Origin: a virus
Virus record (IMG/VR): IMGVR_UViG_3300037247_001544
Location: 1-28,196 of that record
Strand: one strand, 5' to 3'
Length of the DNA: 28,196 nt
The notes under the pieces are model-generated. The model was not told the origin of the DNA. It made no database searches and was given only the letters and a program-made list of their open reading frames with translations. Of this stretch, positions 18,453-27,808 are shown piece by piece (positions within the stretch are counted from its first letter, which is position 1; each line of letters opens with the position of its first letter). Position numbers and translations under genes: made by a program.

Positions 18453-18992
18453 ATGATCGACTTCGATAGGCCAGACATAGACACCTACTGGATGCAGGTA
18501 GTCCACGACATCAAGGAGCGTAGCACCTGCCTCCGGGCTCAGCACGGGTCGGTGATAGTGGACAAGCTGGGCCGTATCATCGCCACCGGCTACAACGGTG
18601 CGCCTCCGGGCCACCCCCACTGCTATGAGGCCGACTGCATACTGGTGGAGCTGGATGACCAGCGGACGCACTGCCTCCGAGCAATACACGGTGACATGAA
18701 CGCCGTGTGGTCGGCAATGATGACCGGCCAGGCCACGCGGATGATCGGCGCTACGATGTACGCCTCAGGTCATCCCTGCCCCCGATGCCTACCCATCCTA
18801 CTCAGCTCAGGCATCAAGCGTATCGTCTATGAGCGGTACGGGTACACCAACTACGACGAAGAGTCGGTAGAGATGATACAGGTAGTCGAGGCTTTCGGCG
18901 CAGTCCTCGAACCGTTCGGTGTGGAGCACCCACTACCTCAGGAGGAGAAGCGTGGAAGTCAGCCTCGTAAACCCGCGAAGCATCGCAAGTAA
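18453..18992 (+). CDS. dCMP/cytidine deaminase family protein
   Basis: 179 residues, ATG at 18453 with GGGAGGACATAA before it. dCMP deaminase makes dUMP, feeding dTTP synthesis. IHGDMNAV (78-85) and HPCPRC (107-112) give zinc ligands His79, Cys109 and Cys112. The usual HAE catalytic Glu is Asp81 here, which is unusual. HCYEADC (56-62) and His73/Cys74 may form the second zinc site seen in T4-like enzymes. The Lys-rich C-terminus overlaps the next gene by 41 bases. Deaminase next to uracil-DNA glycosylase suggests linked dU handling. Confidence 0.8.
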   Translation: MIDFDRPDIDTYWMQVVHDIKERSTCLRAQHGSVIVDKLGRIIATGYNGAPPGHPHCYEADCILVELDDQRTHCLRAIHGDMNAVWSAMMTGQATRMIGATMYASGHPCPRCLPILLSSGIKRIVYERYGYTNYDEESVEMIQVVEAFGAVLEPFGVEHPLPQEEKRGSQPRKPAKHRK

Positions 18993-20223
18993 CCCACTCA
19001 ACGCATACATATACACCGCCCCTAGCGGAGACGACTTCGAGGCGTTGAAGAAAAGTATCCTGACGGAGGGCATCCTTGAGCCTCTCCTGATCACCACCGA
19101 AGGGATACTCGTCTCCGGTCACAGGCGGCTGGCTGCAGCACTCTCGCTTGGGCTCACCGAAGTGCCTGTCCTCAGCCGCTCCTTCCCCGACGATGCCTCC
19201 CTCTCTATCGCCCTTGTCGAAAGCAACCGCCATCGGAAAAAGACCTTCTCGGAGATGATGCGCGAGGCCGAGGTCCTGCATGGGGCGGAGGACGCTCGAG
19301 CCAAGGAGCGTCAACAAATGGGAAAGGCTATTGCGGAGGATCAGGTAACATTACCTGAAGAAGAAAAGGGCCAAGCACGAGCCAAGGTGGCCGACAAGTT
19401 GGGTGTAGGCGAGCGCACCTACTACATGATGACCAAGATCGTAGCCGCCGGAAAGGATAGCCCCCATGTGGCTGCTCAGATTGAAAAACTGGATCGTGGC
19501 GAGACTACGGTGTTCGCAGTCTACAAGACCGTCCAAAAGGTTGATCGGGACCCACTCGATTTCCCACTCAAGGTGTACGACCTGTGGCACTTCGGTGGTC
19601 TTAACCCTAAGTATGGTCAGCCTCACCCTGGAGCAATACCTGGTGACATTATTGAGAACCTGTTGTGGTACTACACAGACGTTGGCGACCTCGTTGTTGA
19701 CCCTTTCGCCGGAGGGGGAGTTACTCTTGACGTCTGCAAAGCATGGGACCGAAGGTGCATCGCCAGCGACATAAGGCCGGCGAGGGAGGATATCCTTGAA
19801 TGGGACGTGGCTAAGGGCTTACCTGCTGGCTCAGACGGTGCTGATCTTGTGTTTCTTGACCCGCCATATGCTAATATGCTTGCAGAACTCTACTCCGAGG
19901 ACTCGGCGTCAAGTTTCAGTATGGCGGAGTTTATCCAGTTTATGCAGAAGGTTGGTATCAGCTCAAGAGACGCTCTTGGACCGGGCGGAAAGGTTGCTCT
20001 TATCATTATGAAGCAAGTCTACCGTCTACCCGAGGGCGTTCCCTACTTGGACTGGCCGCTCATCCTTTGGAAGGTGTTCACCTCTGAAGGACTGCGGCTC
20101 ATCATGAGAGTGATAAACTCATGGCCGAGCAACATATGGGTAGCCCCGCAGGTGGAGAGGGCGAAGGACGAGAAGAGGATGCTCCCCATCTGCGGAGACT
20201 TGCTTATCTTCGACAAGCCTTAG
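18952..20223 (+). CDS. ParB-like nuclease domain fused to DNA methyltransferase
   Basis: 423 residues from the GTG at 18952, supported by AGGAGGAG; the ATG at 18919 lacks a site. Residues 1-100 are ParB-like (ILEPLLITTEGILVSGHRRL), followed by a helical linker with HTH-like AKVADKLGVGERTYYMM (144-160). The methyltransferase part has motif I VVDPFAGGG (248-256) before motif IV FLDPPY (301-306), the order of alpha/gamma-type amino-methyltransferases; DPPY suits N6-adenine or N4-cytosine. ParB-methyltransferase fusions are known in phages, probably for anti-restriction. Codon choice shifts towards T-ending codons after about 19440, suggesting the halves were joined. Confidence 0.85.
   Translation: MEVSLVNPRSIASNPLNAYIYTAPSGDDFEALKKSILTEGILEPLLITTEGILVSGHRRLAAALSLGLTEVPVLSRSFPDDASLSIALVESNRHRKKTFSEMMREAEVLHGAEDARAKERQQMGKAIAEDQVTLPEEEKGQARAKVADKLGVGERTYYMMTKIVAAGKDSPHVAAQIEKLDRGETTVFAVYKTVQKVDRDPLDFPLKVYDLWHFGGLNPKYGQPHPGAIPGDIIENLLWYYTDVGDLVVDPFAGGGVTLDVCKAWDRRCIASDIRPAREDILEWDVAKGLPAGSDGADLVFLDPPYANMLAELYSEDSASSFSMAEFIQFMQKVGISSRDALGPGGKVALIIMKQVYRLPEGVPYLDWPLILWKVFTSEGLRLIMRVINSWPSNIWVAPQVERAKDEKRMLPICGDLLIFDKP
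19343..19356 (+). repeat. Palindrome copy 4 (AGGTAACATTACCT)
   Basis: Perfect copy inside the ParB-methyltransferase gene, coding Q131-V-T-L-P. The dyad extends to 18 bp (TCAGGTAACATTACCTGA) and is followed by AG, keeping the shared GRAG. Confidence 0.85.
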
Positions 20224-20610: not shown

Positions 20611-20821
20611 GTTTACGCCCAAGCAGTACAGTCTAGGCTACTCCGTCGATAAGGAGATGATGGACGATGACCTGTTCACTCATCTCTTCGGCAATAAGCA
20701 CAAGAACTTTAAGGGTAGACGGTACAGGAGAGGGAAGAATAGGTGCAGCTTCTGCGGAGCAAAGACAGATGATCGACCGGCCATCCCATTGCACCCCCTG
20801 CCCTATTGCATGTCTGACTGA
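20594..20821 (+). CDS. Small zinc-knuckle protein, 75 residues
   Basis: ATG at 20594, overlapping the previous gene by 17 bases, no clear site. A basic stretch (NFKGRRYRRGKNRCSFCGAK) leads into Cys55 and Cys58, with HPLPYC near the end completing a possible CCHC zinc site. Its end overlaps the glycosylase gene by 53 bases. Function unknown. Confidence 0.55.
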   Translation: MTLFTKFTPKQYSLGYSVDKEMMDDDLFTHLFGNKHKNFKGRRYRRGKNRCSFCGAKTDDRPAIPLHPLPYCMSD

Positions 20822-21818
20822 GGGCTTCGCTGTTGGGTTTGGCAACCCTGATGCTCGCATTCTCTTTATGGGCGAGTCTTTGGGTGCTGATGAGGTCAAG
20901 CAAGGGCTGCCGTTCGTGGGGGGAGTTGGGCGTATACTAACCAAGCTCATCATGGAGGCAGGGTTCCGTCGGCAACAATTCTTCATCCACAATGCCATAA
21001 ACTGTCGGCCTCCCAGTAACAAGCTGGACTCACTACCACCAGGCTTAGTGGCTGACGCCCTAGTACACTGCTCCGCGTATTGGCGGCGCACCATTAGGGA
21101 AGTGAAGCCGAAGGTGATAATTGCCCTGGGCAACTATGCCCTGCAGACCCTGGTCGGCCGTAGTGGGATAATGCGGAGGCGGGGGTATGTGTGGCGTGTC
21201 ACCATAGAGGGCGTGGACCTGCTGGTCGTACCAACCCTCCACCCGGGGGCACTGGTCAAGGGTGAGAAGATGCGTACCTTCTGGGGTATAGTTAGAGAGG
21301 ACATCCGGAAGGCAGTCGAGTACGCCAGCGACCCTCCCCCACCGTATGAGGAAAACCTAATCATCCAGCCCACCGTGGACGATGTGGTCAGAGAGCTGTC
21401 GCCCCTGCGGCTGGACGGTGGACCGGTTTGGATTGATCTTGAGTGGCTCGGGGCGGCCCTGCTATGTGTCGGCTTGGCTTGGACTGAGCGGGACGCGCTC
21501 TGCATACCGTTTTGGAGTAACGATGAGAGCAAGTACTGGGCAGAGCCCGACCTGGCTGTGGTCGTGGAGTACCTGTATGATGTCCTCGCCGGCCCCCGTG
21601 GTAAGCGATTCCACTACGGTGGCACCGCCGACATACCCAAGCTGGCCGAGGTAGGGTTCGTGGTGAACAACTGGGACGGGGACACAGGCGCGAAGCACCA
21701 CCTGCTGTACGCTGAGCTGCCACACAAGCTCGAGTTCGTAGCCTCTACTCACAGCACCATGCCGTTCTGGAAGGACATGGCTACGCAGACCGATGAAGCG
21801 GAGGAGGAGGGGAAATGA
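20769..21818 (+). CDS. Uracil-DNA glycosylase (family 4-like) fused to half of a 3'-5' exonuclease domain
   Basis: 349 residues from the ATG at 20769 (GGAG nine bases upstream). Residues 1-190 are a family-4-type uracil-DNA glycosylase: Cys8 and Cys11 (CTPC), NCRPPSNK (Cys79) and Cys101 would ligate a 4Fe-4S cluster, with active-site motifs GESLGADEVKQGLPFVG (35-51) and LHPGAL (157-162). Residues 215-349 are a DnaQ/PolA-type exonuclease lacking its end: WIDLEW (Asp223, Glu225, Exo I), TADIPKL (Asp288, Exo II) and LPHKLEFVAS (318-327). The Exo III motif is in the polymerase gene downstream. The fusion would join uracil removal to proofreading. Confidence 0.85.
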   Translation: MIDRPSHCTPCPIACLTEGFAVGFGNPDARILFMGESLGADEVKQGLPFVGGVGRILTKLIMEAGFRRQQFFIHNAINCRPPSNKLDSLPPGLVADALVHCSAYWRRTIREVKPKVIIALGNYALQTLVGRSGIMRRRGYVWRVTIEGVDLLVVPTLHPGALVKGEKMRTFWGIVREDIRKAVEYASDPPPPYEENLIIQPTVDDVVRELSPLRLDGGPVWIDLEWLGAALLCVGLAWTERDALCIPFWSNDESKYWAEPDLAVVVEYLYDVLAGPRGKRFHYGGTADIPKLAEVGFVVNNWDGDTGAKHHLLYAELPHKLEFVASTHSTMPFWKDMATQTDEAEEEGK

Positions 21819-21997
21819 AGCGAGTCATCTTCCTATATTGGCCGCTAATAATGGCCGGAGTAGGGGGTATATTTGCTCTGGGAATGGTAGCAGCAACGGC
21901 CGCCGAACTACTTAGTGGCCGCACCTTGGATGTGATACTTTTCCTATCCTTAACCTTCTTGGGGGCCTGTATCGTAGGACTGGCTGTAGACGTATGA
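21815..21997 (+). CDS. Small two-span membrane protein between polymerase halves, 60 residues
   Basis: ATG at 21815, overlapping the glycosylase stop (ATGA), and its own stop overlaps the polymerase start the same way. Two hydrophobic spans, residues about 4-31 (VIFLYWPLIMAGVGGIFALG) and 39-58 (DVILFLSLTFLGACIVGLAV). No ribosome site, so translation is coupled. A membrane protein at this spot is odd; it could tether replication to the membrane or be a chance insertion. Confidence 0.7.
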   Translation: MKRVIFLYWPLIMAGVGGIFALGMVAATAAELLSGRTLDVILFLSLTFLGACIVGLAVDV

Positions 21998-23376
21998 GAC
22001 CTAGCAACTCAACCTGGACCTACAACCTCCGTGACTGCCTAGCCACTGCTAGGATAGACGAGCAGCTGGACAGGGACCTGCGGGATGACGGGCTGGTCCA
22101 CTTCTATGCGGACCACGTCCACCCTCTGTTCCAGGCTCTCTACAACCTGCAGTCCAGGGGCATCATGGTGGACCTCGACCGCCACAGCATGCTACAGTCC
22201 CAGTACTACGAGAAGATAGAGGAGCTGCAGTTCCTGCTGAGTGAGTTCACCGGCCGAAAGGTTACCAACCCTGGTTCCAGGGATGAGTGGCGCAAGTTCC
22301 TCTATGAGGACCTTGGCTTGAAACCCAAGGCGCTCACCAAGGTAAAGAAGATACCCCAGCTCACCAAGCTCGTACTCTTCCAACACATCGCCTTCGATGA
22401 GCTCCCCGAAGAGATCGAGCAGCTCTGCCGCCTACTGGTCAAGTGGTTCGAGTGGCGGCACATCAAGGCAGCCTTCCTAGATAACCTGTATGTCCACCAC
22501 GACGAGCGAGTCCGGTCAAGCTGGAAGGGGACCGGGTCGAGGACTGGTCGACCCACCTCATCGAGGCCTGACTTGCAGAATATACCCAAGCGCAAGCACA
22601 ACATCAGGTCGATGTACCGGGCTGCTCCAGGCAAGGTGCTGGTGAACTGTGACGCGAAGCAGATGGAGATGTACCTGATCGCGCTCGCATCGGGGGCCAC
22701 CAAGCTCATCAAGATGATCGAGGAGGACGTGGATGTCCACAGTTACAACGCCTACCTCGCAGACGGCACAGCCACCGGACTCGAGGACATAGCCACTATC
22801 AAGCGACTGATGGAGAACAAAGGCAAAGCGGCTGAGGATAGGCGGGACCCGGCCAAGTCGTACTGGTACGCATGGGAGTTCGGCGCCGGCGATGCCACCA
22901 TCGCAGTTACCATCCTCGAAGAGACTGAGGGTGAGATCGTACTGACCTCCGAGCAGATAGCAAACCTCAGGAAAGTCATACAGGGTGCTTACCCTGAGAT
23001 ACCTAGATGGTGGGGAGACGTCCGCGCGAAGGCACGCCAGCAGATGAGTGTCGTGAACGAGTGGGGACGCCCACGACTACTCTTCGCCGGTGACACGCAC
23101 GGCGTCCCACCCAACACCATCATTCAGAGCACCGGTGCGGACTGGGTCAATGGTATCCTCATAGAGGTGGATAAGATGACCATGAGTGGGCAGCGTAGGG
23201 GGCAGGTCATCCACCACGGGTGGGACTCGCTGCTGGACGAGACGCCCGACGAGCATGAGAGCATCAAGGTGTTCAGCGAAGCGTTCGCAAAGCCCATCGA
23301 GGTGTTCGGGTACACTGTGTCAATGCCGTATGGGATTAGTCGCGGCCCCTACTGGGGAGAATTGGAGGACGTATGA
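21994..23376 (+). CDS. Family-A DNA polymerase, C-terminal part (Exo III remnant plus polymerase domain)
   Basis: 460 residues, ATG at 21994. WTYNLRDCLAT (8-18) is the Exo III motif YxxxD with Tyr10 and Asp14, completing the exonuclease begun in the gene at 20769. The polymerase domain shows SRTGR (182-186), RPDLQNIP (191-198), motif A NCDAKQMEM (Asp220), a motif-B-like RRDPAKSYWYAWEFGAG (283-299, Lys288) and motif C HHGWDSLLDE (407-416, Asp411). Motif C keeps the catalytic Asp but has WDS in place of HDE, so the enzyme is divergent. This is presumably the phage replicase. Confidence 0.85.
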   Translation: MRPSNSTWTYNLRDCLATARIDEQLDRDLRDDGLVHFYADHVHPLFQALYNLQSRGIMVDLDRHSMLQSQYYEKIEELQFLLSEFTGRKVTNPGSRDEWRKFLYEDLGLKPKALTKVKKIPQLTKLVLFQHIAFDELPEEIEQLCRLLVKWFEWRHIKAAFLDNLYVHHDERVRSSWKGTGSRTGRPTSSRPDLQNIPKRKHNIRSMYRAAPGKVLVNCDAKQMEMYLIALASGATKLIKMIEEDVDVHSYNAYLADGTATGLEDIATIKRLMENKGKAAEDRRDPAKSYWYAWEFGAGDATIAVTILEETEGEIVLTSEQIANLRKVIQGAYPEIPRWWGDVRAKARQQMSVVNEWGRPRLLFAGDTHGVPPNTIIQSTGADWVNGILIEVDKMTMSGQRRGQVIHHGWDSLLDETPDEHESIKVFSEAFAKPIEVFGYTVSMPYGISRGPYWGELEDV

Positions 23377-24335
23377 CCAAGGTTCTGATAACCGGGATAG
23401 CCGGCTTCGCAGGCCATCATCTAGCAAAGTACATAATACAGGAGCGGAAGGACTGGGATGTCTATGGCATAGTCGAGCCATGGTACACAGGGCCAAAACC
23501 GGAGCTGCCTGCTGGCATCAAGGAAAGCTACGCCCGGAACATAACCTCAAGGTGGGACGTGGACGAGGTGTTCAGAGACCTAAAACCTAACATAATATTC
23601 CACCTGGCCGCGAGGCCATTCGTTCCAGACTCTTTTGCCGACCCAGTAAAGACCTTTGAAGTCAACTTAATGGGGACACTAAACATCCTGGAGTCTATGC
23701 GAAAGTGCTGCCCCCTCGCAAGGATGCACTTCGCCGGCTCGAGTGAAGAGTACGGGTTGGTAGAGGACCACGAGCTACCCATATGGGAAGGCCAGCCGCT
23801 GCGTCCTCTCAGCCCCTACGGGGTGAGCAAGGTGGCCGCAAGCTACCTCTGCTACCAGTACCACAAGAGTTATGGCCTTGGCATAACCAGGACCCGGGCC
23901 TTCAACCACACCGGCCCAGGGCGGGGGCATATGTACGCTACCTCAACCTTCGCCAGGCAAGTAGCCGAGGTCAAGCAGGGCAAGAGGGACGACATCGTGG
24001 TAGGTAACCTGAGTGCAGTCCGCGACCTCACCGACGTCCGGGACATGGTAAGAGCCTACATCCTTGCAGTAGAGCACTGCCCACCAGGCGAGGTCTTCAA
24101 TGTCTGCAGTGGTATAGGCAGGAGCATGCGCTCGGTCCTCGACCTGCTGCTGGAGTTGGCTAACGTCAAGGTCCGCAACATCCAAATCGACCAGGCCATG
24201 CTGCGACCATCGGATGTGCCCCGCCTGATAGGCCACTGCCACGCCTTTAGGATGCAGACCGGCTGGTCCCCGGAGATACCCTTCGATCAGACCATGAGAG
24301 ACTTGCTGGACTACTGGAGGGACAGGCTGAAATAA
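23373..24335 (+). CDS. gmd: NAD(P)-dependent sugar-nucleotide enzyme, GDP-mannose 4,6-dehydratase-like
   Basis: 320 residues, ATG at 23373 with GGAGG four bases upstream. Short-chain dehydrogenase with nucleotide-binding GIAGFAG (8-14), active-site SSEEYG (123-128) and SPYGVSK (Tyr149, Lys153), and substrate-region motifs RTRAFNHTGPGRG and MLRPSDVPRL. The last two are hallmarks of the GDP-mannose dehydratase/reductase group. It is shorter than the E. coli dehydratase but fits bacterial and phage relatives. A 4-keto-6-deoxymannose reductase is the alternative. With the enzyme at 26858 it could make GDP-L-fucose. Confidence 0.8.
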   Translation: MTKVLITGIAGFAGHHLAKYIIQERKDWDVYGIVEPWYTGPKPELPAGIKESYARNITSRWDVDEVFRDLKPNIIFHLAARPFVPDSFADPVKTFEVNLMGTLNILESMRKCCPLARMHFAGSSEEYGLVEDHELPIWEGQPLRPLSPYGVSKVAASYLCYQYHKSYGLGITRTRAFNHTGPGRGHMYATSTFARQVAEVKQGKRDDIVVGNLSAVRDLTDVRDMVRAYILAVEHCPPGEVFNVCSGIGRSMRSVLDLLLELANVKVRNIQIDQAMLRPSDVPRLIGHCHAFRMQTGWSPEIPFDQTMRDLLDYWRDRLK

Positions 24336-24353: not shown

Positions 24354-25799
24354 ATGACCGTCCCGATCCAAAAGCAATTCGACATCCTCGTCCAGCAACT
24401 AGAGGCCAAGGAGTGGCCGACCGACGCATCGAAGATAGAAGTTATAAAGTACCTGCAAAGGTTCATAGAGCACGCCACGCCAGACCAGAAGGACAAGCTG
24501 TTGGTAACGGCCGCCAACAGGCTGGGTGTGCCAATGGACGCCTTGATCTCCGTCGTGATGGGGGGTGCCGACCCGGCCACTCTGCTGGCACCCCCACCAG
24601 AGAGGGTAGCGGTCAGCTTCCCGAAGGAGGGGTGGCTAGGTGAGTACCTTAGACTTACGGAAGGTCACGAAGCTCCCGACATTTTTCATTTCTGGGTTGG
24701 GGTGGCGGTCCTATCTGCTAGCCTCAAGAGAAGTATTAAGTTTGATAAATCCTACTACCGAGTATATCCAAATCACTATATCATTCTCGTCTCGCCCTCG
24801 GGAGTCTGCCGAAAAACGACAGCTTGCGGTATCGGAGTTGACGTTCTGCGTTTCTCCGAAACAGCTAACGTCATCTCTGAGAAAATTACTCCCGAAGGTC
24901 TCATCGAAGCGCTCTCGCTCCAGGTTAAAACGGGCAAAGGAGGTGAAAAGGAGACTAGGATTGAAGGAGACGCGACTGCCATGCTCTTCGCCCCGGAGCT
25001 GGGCGTCTTCCTGGGCAGGCAGACGTATAATGAAGATATGATAGACCTGTTAACCTCTTTAGCGGATACGAGAGATGCGCCATTCGATTACATCACACGC
25101 AGTAAGGGTAAATTTAGACTCAGGGGTACTGCTATTACTCTTCTTGGAGCCACGACACCCGATTGGATGTCCGAAATGTTCCCGCGCCTTGCATACGGTG
25201 GAGGATTTATGGCACGAACTCTGTTCATCCATCAGTCCACCACCCCCAGACGATTTGCGTTCCCTCGAATACCGGACTATGCAAAGTCTAACGATTGGTT
25301 CGTTGAAGGCATCAAAGAGATCGGGAGAATGCAAGGCAACTTCTCCCTCGCGCCCGAAGCGGAGGCGTGGTACGAAAACTGGTACAAAAACTACCCGAAG
25401 GAGCAGGACCACCTCGCGCTCTCGCACTACTACGAGAGGAAGCCGGACCACCTAATACGGCTTGGCATGATACTAGCCGCCAGCGAGGGCAAGCCGATGG
25501 TACTCACGGAGGAACTGTTCGAGCGGGCGCTCGCACTCATCAACATAACTGAGGTGAGTATGCCCGAGGCGTTCCAGCGGGTCGAGACGACTCAGTTAGG
25601 CAAGGAGCATGAGCGGCTACTGTACGCGCTACGCAAGGCGGGTGGGTCCATGAGCAAGTCGAACCTACTGAAGCGGATATACAGGTATGGCATTAGTTCG
25701 AGGCGGCTGCGAGAGTTGACGCAGACCCTGGAGGAGGCTAAGATCATCAGCGTGGCCATGGTGGGTAAAGAGATGGTGTATAGCTTAAGGGAGATATGA
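24354..25799 (+). CDS. DUF3987-type P-loop ATPase, possible helicase or primase-helicase
   Basis: 481 residues, ATG at 24354 with TGGAGG upstream. The P-loop SPSGVCRKTT (147-156) has Arg where most have Gly before Lys-Thr; FAPELG (212-217) looks like Walker B with Glu215. IFHFWVGVAVLSASL (110-124) before the P-loop and YPNHYIILV are typical of DUF3987 proteins, found with phage replication genes and thought to be helicase-like. Residues about 420-475 form a winged-helix-like end. Codons from 24660 to 25300 are more AT-rich than the flanks. It may serve as the replicative helicase, as no DnaB-type gene is present. Confidence 0.75.
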   Translation: MTVPIQKQFDILVQQLEAKEWPTDASKIEVIKYLQRFIEHATPDQKDKLLVTAANRLGVPMDALISVVMGGADPATLLAPPPERVAVSFPKEGWLGEYLRLTEGHEAPDIFHFWVGVAVLSASLKRSIKFDKSYYRVYPNHYIILVSPSGVCRKTTACGIGVDVLRFSETANVISEKITPEGLIEALSLQVKTGKGGEKETRIEGDATAMLFAPELGVFLGRQTYNEDMIDLLTSLADTRDAPFDYITRSKGKFRLRGTAITLLGATTPDWMSEMFPRLAYGGGFMARTLFIHQSTTPRRFAFPRIPDYAKSNDWFVEGIKEIGRMQGNFSLAPEAEAWYENWYKNYPKEQDHLALSHYYERKPDHLIRLGMILAASEGKPMVLTEELFERALALINITEVSMPEAFQRVETTQLGKEHERLLYALRKAGGSMSKSNLLKRIYRYGISSRRLRELTQTLEEAKIISVAMVGKEMVYSLREI

Positions 25800-26857: not shown

Positions 26858-27808
26858 GTGGTGGATAAGATAAAGACTGTGCTGGTGACGGGTGGAGCTG
26901 GTTTCCTCGGTAGGGTAGTTGTGAAAAAGCTGATGGAGAAGGGGTACAACCCGGCGACCCCTCGGTCAGAGAAATACGACTTGAGGCGGCAAGACCAGGT
27001 CCACCAACTGTTCCAGAAGGTGAACCCTCACATCGTAGTGCACCTAGCGGCCACGGTGGGGGGGATTGGATTGAACCAGGCTAAACCGGGCACGATGTTC
27101 TATGACAACATGGCCATGGGGATAGAGGTCATCGAGGCGTGCAGGATGTACGGGGTGGAGAACCTGGTGATGGTGGGTACAGCCTGTTCGTACCCTAAGG
27201 ACGCCGTCCATGTGGAGTACAACCTGTTCGAGGGCTTCCCAGAGCCGACCAACGCTCCCTACGGTATAGCGAAGAGGGCGCTCCTGATGCAGATGCTGGC
27301 TTACTACAAGCAGTATAAGTTGAAGGGGGCGTACCTCATTCCGACCAACCTGTACGGGCCTGGGGACAACTTCGACCTCGAGACCTCGCACGTCATACCG
27401 GCGATCATCAGGAAGGTGGAGAATGCCATTCTCTCCGGCAAGTCGGCGGTTCTGTTGTGGGGGACGGGCACACCTACTAGAGACTTCCTCTACGTGGACG
27501 ACGCTGCTGAGGCAATCGTGAGGGTGGTGGAGAAGACCATGAAGCCGGAGCCTATCAACCTAAGCTCATACGACCCCATATCCATGAAGGTGCTAGCAGA
27601 TATGATCGGCGGGATTATGGGCTACACGGGGTGCTTCGACTGGGATTCCACAAAGCCAGATGGGCAGCCTCGCCGGGCACTAGACCCAAGCAGAGCTGCC
27701 CAGATACTCGACTGGCGGTTCTCCACCAGCCTACGGGTTGGCTTGGAGAACACGGTCAGGTGGTACAGAGCTACAAGTGGGTTCGGGGGAGGGTGTACGA
27801 GGCGCTAG
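26858..27808 (+). CDS. fcl: GDP-L-fucose synthase-like epimerase/reductase
   Basis: 316 residues from GTG at 26858; the next codon, GTG at 26861, is better spaced from AAAGGAGGG. GDP-L-fucose synthase turns GDP-4-keto-6-deoxymannose into GDP-L-fucose. GGAGFLG (12-18) binds NADPH, HLAATVGGI (62-70) is the family hallmark, GTACSYPK (107-114) and APYGIAK (Tyr135, Lys139) form the active site, and NLYGPGDNF (164-172) is diagnostic. Its partner dehydratase is at 23373. It is the last early gene and its stop interlocks with that of the opposing gene. Confidence 0.85.
   Translation: MVDKIKTVLVTGGAGFLGRVVVKKLMEKGYNPATPRSEKYDLRRQDQVHQLFQKVNPHIVVHLAATVGGIGLNQAKPGTMFYDNMAMGIEVIEACRMYGVENLVMVGTACSYPKDAVHVEYNLFEGFPEPTNAPYGIAKRALLMQMLAYYKQYKLKGAYLIPTNLYGPGDNFDLETSHVIPAIIRKVENAILSGKSAVLLWGTGTPTRDFLYVDDAAEAIVRVVEKTMKPEPINLSSYDPISMKVLADMIGGIMGYTGCFDWDSTKPDGQPRRALDPSRAAQILDWRFSTSLRVGLENTVRWYRATSGFGGGCTRR

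Follow-up and report, generated by a model that had tools for sequence, protein, structure and literature searches.

The polymerase gene described here is divided within its proofreading domain. The window, viz. the whole stretch of 28,196 nucleotides that was analysed (positions 1 to 28,196 of the IMG/VR virus record IMGVR_UViG_3300037247_001544), encodes a uracil-DNA glycosylase (UDG)-exonuclease-family A DNA polymerase as two ORFs rather than one, and we consider it highly probable that the products of these two genes come together to rebuild a DEDDy proofreading site in trans. All of the DEDDy residues (the DxE of Exo I, the D of Exo II and the YxxxD of Exo III) are present, distributed over the two chains, with only the Asn of Exo II missing. 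An earlier sequence-only reading of this DNA had placed Exo I and Exo II on the glycosylase protein and Exo III on the polymerase protein, and this is confirmed by our results, as the motifs are in register with those of single-chain relatives. The same reading had described an ORF for a 60-residue membrane protein between the two halves, with four-base overlaps on both sides, and this ORF is found where it had been placed. The features of the window are listed in Table 1.

Table 1. Features of the polymerase locus and its surroundings, in positions of the window.
Feature	Position	Strand	Description or basis
dCMP deaminase	18453..18992	+	Pfam PF00383 (E=7e-19), PHROG_174; makes dUMP; same replication region
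ParB-N + N6/N4 DNA methyltransferase fusion	18919..20223	+	Pfam, PHROG
UDG-exonuclease half	20769..21818	+	Family-4-type UDG, then Exo I and Exo II; C-terminal end ...TDEAEEEGK, at 21818
Exo I, D257 to E259	21435-21443		W-I-D257-L-E259-W
Exo II, Asn replaced by Gly318	21618-21632		Asp kept
Exo II, D322	21630-21632		GTADIP
Purine-rich Shine-Dalgarno-like run gaggaggaggggaa	21801..21814	+	Sequence
ATGA overlap	21815-21818		First half/membrane ORF
60-aa two-helix membrane ORF	21815..21997	+	Junction insert, ATGA overlap at both ends
ATGA overlap	21994-21997		Membrane ORF/polymerase half
Polymerase half	21994..23376	+	Exo III, then complete family A polymerase
Exo III, Y10	22021-22023		Y10-N-L-R-D14
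Exo III, D14	22033-22035		Y10-N-L-R-D14
Motif A, D220	22651
Motif B, K288	22855
Motif C, His replaced by Trp	23221-23226
Motif C, D411	23224
Nucleotide-sugar epimerase	23373..24335	+	Pfam, PHROG; between polymerase and primase
ATGA overlap	23373-23376		Polymerase/epimerase boundary
DUF3987 primase-like protein	24354..25799	+	Pfam; PHROG_14296
Second epimerase-like gene of the replication region	26858-27808		Judged from sequence only

The residues of the first half are numbered in the 383-aa ORF that opens at position 20667, in which the ATG at 20769 is M35. In the AlphaFold2 model of this ORF (pLDDT 82.9), the disorder of residues 1-36 favours the ATG at 20769, which was also the start chosen in the sequence-only reading, over a start at 20667. 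The other disordered segment comprises residues 371-383, and the model thus supports a predicted floppy C-terminal tail at the break. A UDG domain (PF03167, E=4.7e-25) is recognised by Pfam in the first ORF, and the best Foldseek matches of its model are the family 4 UDG structures 1l9g and 4zbx (E to 1e-16) and the phiLo polymerase 9qhs. The family 4 residues E70, N109 and H192 and the cysteines C42, C45 and C113 are conserved in it, the fourth iron-sulphur Cys being judged by eye in the alignment. Based on its fold, the catalytic E/N/H and the cysteines, the first half is predicted to be a family 4 UDG. The first two iron-sulphur cysteines are absent or gapped in the alignment in about half of the polymerase family, so that many family members may have an altered or inactive UDG and the clade of the window an intact one.

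The second ORF contains DNA_pol_A (PF00476, E=4.1e-32) and its PDB profile matches are to Klentaq/Klenow (E to 1e-65). Only 9 residues precede its Exo III motif, and with PF00476, the Asp of motif A, the Lys of motif B and the Asp of motif C all present, it belongs to the family A DNA polymerases. Both outer ORFs match PHROG_17 ('DNA polymerase'), and they do so at consecutive positions, viz. 477-782 and 807-1196. Two positions of the window's enzyme deviate, both in a way that is rare in the family. The Exo II Asn, which is found in 56 of the 57 enzymes split at the same place (site A, see below), is a Gly here, and the His of motif C, found in 18 of 19 split members, is a Trp; these losses could weaken the exonuclease or the polymerase of this particular enzyme.

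The ORF for the ParB-methyltransferase fusion shares 74 nt with the 3' end of the dCMP deaminase ORF, and in L001, L003, L004 and L006 (numbers of this kind denote loci) the polymerase likewise has a ParB or methyltransferase gene on its upstream side. In relatives, L002 and L004 among them, the polymerase is directly followed by a DUF3987 primase-like gene. The sequence-only reading had proposed that the layout would place uracil removal at the replication fork, next to a dCMP deaminase; this is a plausible idea, and it would apply to the whole polymerase family.

That reading had also regarded the fusion with a UDG as part of what is new in this locus. This is not borne out, and the possibility of a recent UDG fusion was rejected once single-chain relatives turned up. 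The three activities are carried by one protein of 780-860 aa in vir526, ctMlz233 and Microcystis phage Mel-JY34, and unsplit UDG-exonuclease-polymerases account for 79 of the 98 sampled polymerases in the tree. A phage structure of such a UDG-polymerase fusion, that of the phiLo polymerase (9QHS), has been solved, and several UDG structures bear the name 'phage SPO1 DNA polymerase-related'. The single-chain relatives align straight through the window's break, with all exonuclease motifs in register, and these phage enzymes (PHROG_17; 9QHS; vir526, Mel-JY34) have the same domains, in the same order and with the same catalytic residues, as the window, the difference being that they consist of one chain and the window's enzyme of two. 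Members of this phage polymerase family are ordinarily single chains, and the break is a derived trait. Single-chain forms are present also in contigs assigned to Phenylobacterium, Thermodesulfobacteriota and Thermoproteota MAGs (L175, L213 and L216), which are probably viral contigs or prophages.

The position of the break was examined on an AlphaFold2 model of the single-chain enzyme L019 (pLDDT 90.5, pTM 0.88), whose nearest fold is Klenow (1kfs). The window's break corresponds to the loop 341-361 of this model, which is flanked by the helix 333-340 on one side and by the Exo III helix (362-389) on the other; the local confidence in the loop falls to 71, and the length of the Exo II-Exo III loop varies among unsplit members in the alignment. 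We refer to this position as site A, and it was placed by the conserved alignment anchors Lys347 and Tyr368. In L001 and L011 the break (site A') is directly after the Exo III helix, at model position 393, next to the linker 390-392; in the global alignment of half-proteins on L019 the ends are scattered in most rows, and only the A' rows were used. A third position (site B) is just before polymerase motif A, in a loop around 595-611 with a block confidence of 62. The loci split at site B (L006, L012, L014, L035, L048, L052, L053, L064 and L073/L077) require at least four origins, which are forced by well-supported branches, and site B is a second break hot spot of the same polymerase family. 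Eight minimal breaks as tightly placed as these are obtained in about 0.04% of uniform draws, under a null that is a rough one.

The sequence-only reading knew of no described enzyme with this layout and had suggested that the gene order be looked for in other phages. When this was done, the break was found repeatedly, with inserts that differ or are absent; the layout is thus not unique, and the isolated phage Kuura shares the break, as do more than 50 environmental phages, counted without redundancy. The enzymes broken at site A are those of the window with its nearest relatives L009 and L010, that of L015 and those of the Kuura clade. If all of these enzymes descended from one split ancestor through split enzymes only, then they should form one clade, and such a clade is rejected (p-AU about 1e-51). 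Because of this, the distribution points to several breaks, viz. at least three in the Exo II-Exo III loop (the window's clade, L015 and the Kuura clade), or alternatively to several re-fusions, as the tree would also be compatible with a break in the common ancestor that was followed by re-fusions. A scan with sequences of the Kuura clade gave a site-A split in 75 loci and, in 6 more, a split enzyme that is truncated by the contig end; 1 locus was uninformative and none was unsplit, and the four seed loci are among this set. The matching IMG/VR stretches number more than 550, and as the best 80 matches were covered per scan, the frequencies should not be interpreted as population estimates. 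L009 and L010 carry the break with no insert and with a direct ATGA overlap between the halves, and Kuura, L015 and L071 carry it with one or two inserts.

After removal of near-copies, 57 non-redundant enzymes split at site A were compared, of which 53 belong to the Kuura clade, with a minimum pairwise identity of 37%. D257, E259 and D322 of the first chain and Y10, D14, D220, K288 and D411 of the second are kept in all 57. The nearest relative of the window shows 33% identity, single-protein scans of viral contigs revealed no close relatives of it, and selection was therefore measured on relatives. For L071 and L068, the dN/dS of the split UDG-exonuclease half is 0.06 (0.060 for the exonuclease part alone); for both halves of a site-B split it is 0.07. 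With complementary ORFs that are under selection, as measured on these relatives, the window's pair appears to be an instance of genes in pieces. Because the five exonuclease residues are invariant and the dN/dS is this low, the two halves are argued to come together, which supports the proposal of the sequence-only reading that the proofreading site is shared by two polypeptides that must join in order to proofread. The evolutionary scenario that we favour is that the ancestral single chain came apart in the flexible loop that leads from Exo II to the Exo III helix. With its own start codon and with coupling by ATGA, each half would then be made as a separate protein; the two would join again to form a Klenow-like enzyme, and its proofreading site would receive its Asp/Glu/Asp from the UDG-exonuclease chain and its Tyr/Asp from the polymerase chain. 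The break would tolerate and collect small unrelated genes, in this case that of the 60-residue membrane protein, which need have no role in the polymerase.

Other interpretations of the two-gene form were also considered. The epsilon subunit of Pol III is a model for a dissociable proofreading subunit, and if the break has itself been selected, then the UDG-exonuclease chain would be a dissociable subunit for proofreading and uracil scanning that could detach from the polymerase half or be exchanged on it, with adjustable fidelity as the result, and the membrane protein would help in its placement; we regard this as unlikely. If, instead, proofreading has been lost, then the first protein would be a free UDG only and the polymerase would be without an exonuclease. 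The halves could fold separately, each around its main domain, and the Exo II of the window is degenerate at one position, as this reading would allow; however, the invariance of the exonuclease residues extends to both chains, the exonuclease part shows a dN/dS of 0.06 after the split, and the Tyr and Asp of Exo III, which would be useless without the partner chain, are retained in every second half. Because both of the separated exonuclease parts are conserved, the halves are unlikely to represent a dead exonuclease, and we judge the loss of proofreading to be quite improbable.

The membrane ORF has two hydrophobic stretches, the best 19-residue Kyte-Doolittle mean being 2.63. It has a GC3 of 0.50 and a codon score of -0.108, the lowest of all genes tested, whereas codon use is normal in both polymerase halves, and it has no significant match in Pfam, PHROG or the phage collection. 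In a random control, 5.5% of shuffled 176-nt gaps were open in its frame, a figure for which exact ATGA overlaps at both ends were not yet required, and the arrangement is taken to exceed chance. The junctions at site A contain either nothing or unrelated genes. Among the latter are HNH endonucleases (HNH_3) in L240, L283, L232 and L268, an endonuclease VII-type ORF (Endonuclease_7) in L247, a DNA-ligase-like ORF in L260, DUF7768 in L281 and tiny membrane ORFs in L068, L242, L247 and L258; at the other break sites, a NrdR-type zinc ribbon is found in L001 (site A') and an HNH endonuclease in L012 (site B). Homing endonucleases colonise the junction repeatedly. A frequent site-A insert is a DUF7768/nucleoside 2-deoxyribosyltransferase-like gene (in L037, L248, L261, L281, L289, L296 and others), where the family match was tested in L037 and L281 and the other loci were recognised by similar sequence starts; it suggests nucleotide-metabolism cargo travelling to the junction. 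The first halves of L071 and L068 are 97% identical, yet an entire membrane ORF of 27 aa is present at the junction in only one of these two loci. Because its codons are atypical, it is without a phage homologue, and other junctions differ or are empty, the 60-residue ORF of the window is probably a recent passenger and not a subunit, and the suggestion of the sequence-only reading that it forms part of the enzyme's layout is not supported in this respect. It could still be proposed that the three genes form a functional unit, in which the 60-aa protein would tie both parts of the polymerase to the membrane, and the exact ATGA coupling on both sides as well as the tiny membrane ORFs in a few other phages are in accordance with this. 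However, most junctions hold other genes or none, a membrane ORF can be present or absent between near-identical first halves, and the window's ORF is foreign in composition and without a homologue in the phage collection. A tether of this kind seems to us a rather improbable explanation, and the passenger interpretation is preferred.

The purine-rich run gaggaggaggggaa encodes EEEG, the acidic tail with which the first half ends, and at the same time forms a Shine-Dalgarno-like run for the next ATG, thereby giving the membrane ORF its own predicted ribosome site; the polymerase half is preceded by a weak Shine-Dalgarno. Across the 57 site-A junctions, each of the three possible relative frames of the halves is represented, and 14 of these junctions are at most 60 nt long, which leaves no room for an insert or an intron. 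No intron was matched by Rfam in the window or in ten relatives, no intein domain by Pfam in the window's two halves, and no canonical -1 slippery heptamer was seen by eye at the junction in the window, L009 or L010. Because the halves occupy three relative frames, 14 of the 57 junctions are too short in this sense and no intron is recognised, two separately initiated proteins are the simplest expression model. If the break were bridged in expression by a group I/II intron, an intein or programmed frameshifting, then a single chain would result; introns do occur in phage polymerase genes, and one has been discussed for a similar split (PMC10580990), but the polymerase does not appear to be interrupted by a group I/II intron, the frames and the short junctions speak against bridging in general, and two frameshifts through the membrane ORF would insert a membrane segment into the exonuclease, all of which makes bridging very improbable. 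Least probable of all is that a sequencing, assembly or frameshift error, or decay of the gene, mimics a split, since, despite the window being one environmental virus record without reads and its Exo II Asn and motif C His being altered, an indel error does not produce an in-frame ORF of 176 nt whose ATGA overlaps are exact, the break is shared by the isolate genome of Kuura and more than 50 independent contigs, all of the catalytic Asp, Glu, Tyr and Lys residues are intact and the codon use of the halves is normal.

A proofreading site that is shared by two proteins, that has arisen repeatedly and that is kept across a diverse clade would constitute a natural split-enzyme experiment. These phages offer ready-made pairs for studying the assembly of an exonuclease in trans and the exchange of the proofreading part, and their junctions provide a system in which coupled genes can be studied as landing sites for new genes. 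Where the first half is labelled 'hypothetical', proofreading can be missed by annotation. This is the case for the Caulobacter phage Kuura (OQ067476), an isolated and fully sequenced phage in which Kuura_029 and Kuura_026 are the two halves and the first half is annotated as hypothetical in the genome record; a term search of the paper on this phage gave no mention of a split (PMC9959647). In the open-licence literature no description was found of a phage UDG-polymerase fusion or of a polymerase split within its exonuclease, and while the domain fusion itself is known, the exonuclease-splitting form is apparently undescribed. Kuura resembles the window in its domains and in that the loop from Exo II to Exo III is the place of its break, but its gap contains two other small ORFs and its break is probably of separate origin. 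In the OM43 phages MEP401 and MEP402, too, the family A polymerase is encoded by two ORFs that are separated by a small one, and the authors suspected an intron (PMC10580990). They are similar to the window in the split family A polymerase and in the uncharacterised kind of the small intervening ORF; however, their break is at polymerase motif A, leaving the exonuclease whole in the first ORF, and there is no UDG. The closest precedents for an essential phage replication enzyme in two ORFs are the split family B polymerase gp43A/gp43B of Aeromonas phages 25 and 44RR, whose parts co-purify and are active in polymerisation, and the split NrdA of phage Aeh1, which is active (PMC2988022). In such genes in pieces a homing endonuclease is frequent in the gap but not required, the gap of 44RR being a non-coding spacer (PMC2988022). 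Some gp43-type members thus have a homing endonuclease in the gap, as do relatives of the window, whereas the window itself has only the membrane ORF. Further, these precedents involve a family B polymerase or a ribonucleotide reductase and no UDG, whereas the window's enzyme is a family A polymerase with a UDG, and its break, unlike that in split gp43, divides the exonuclease active site.
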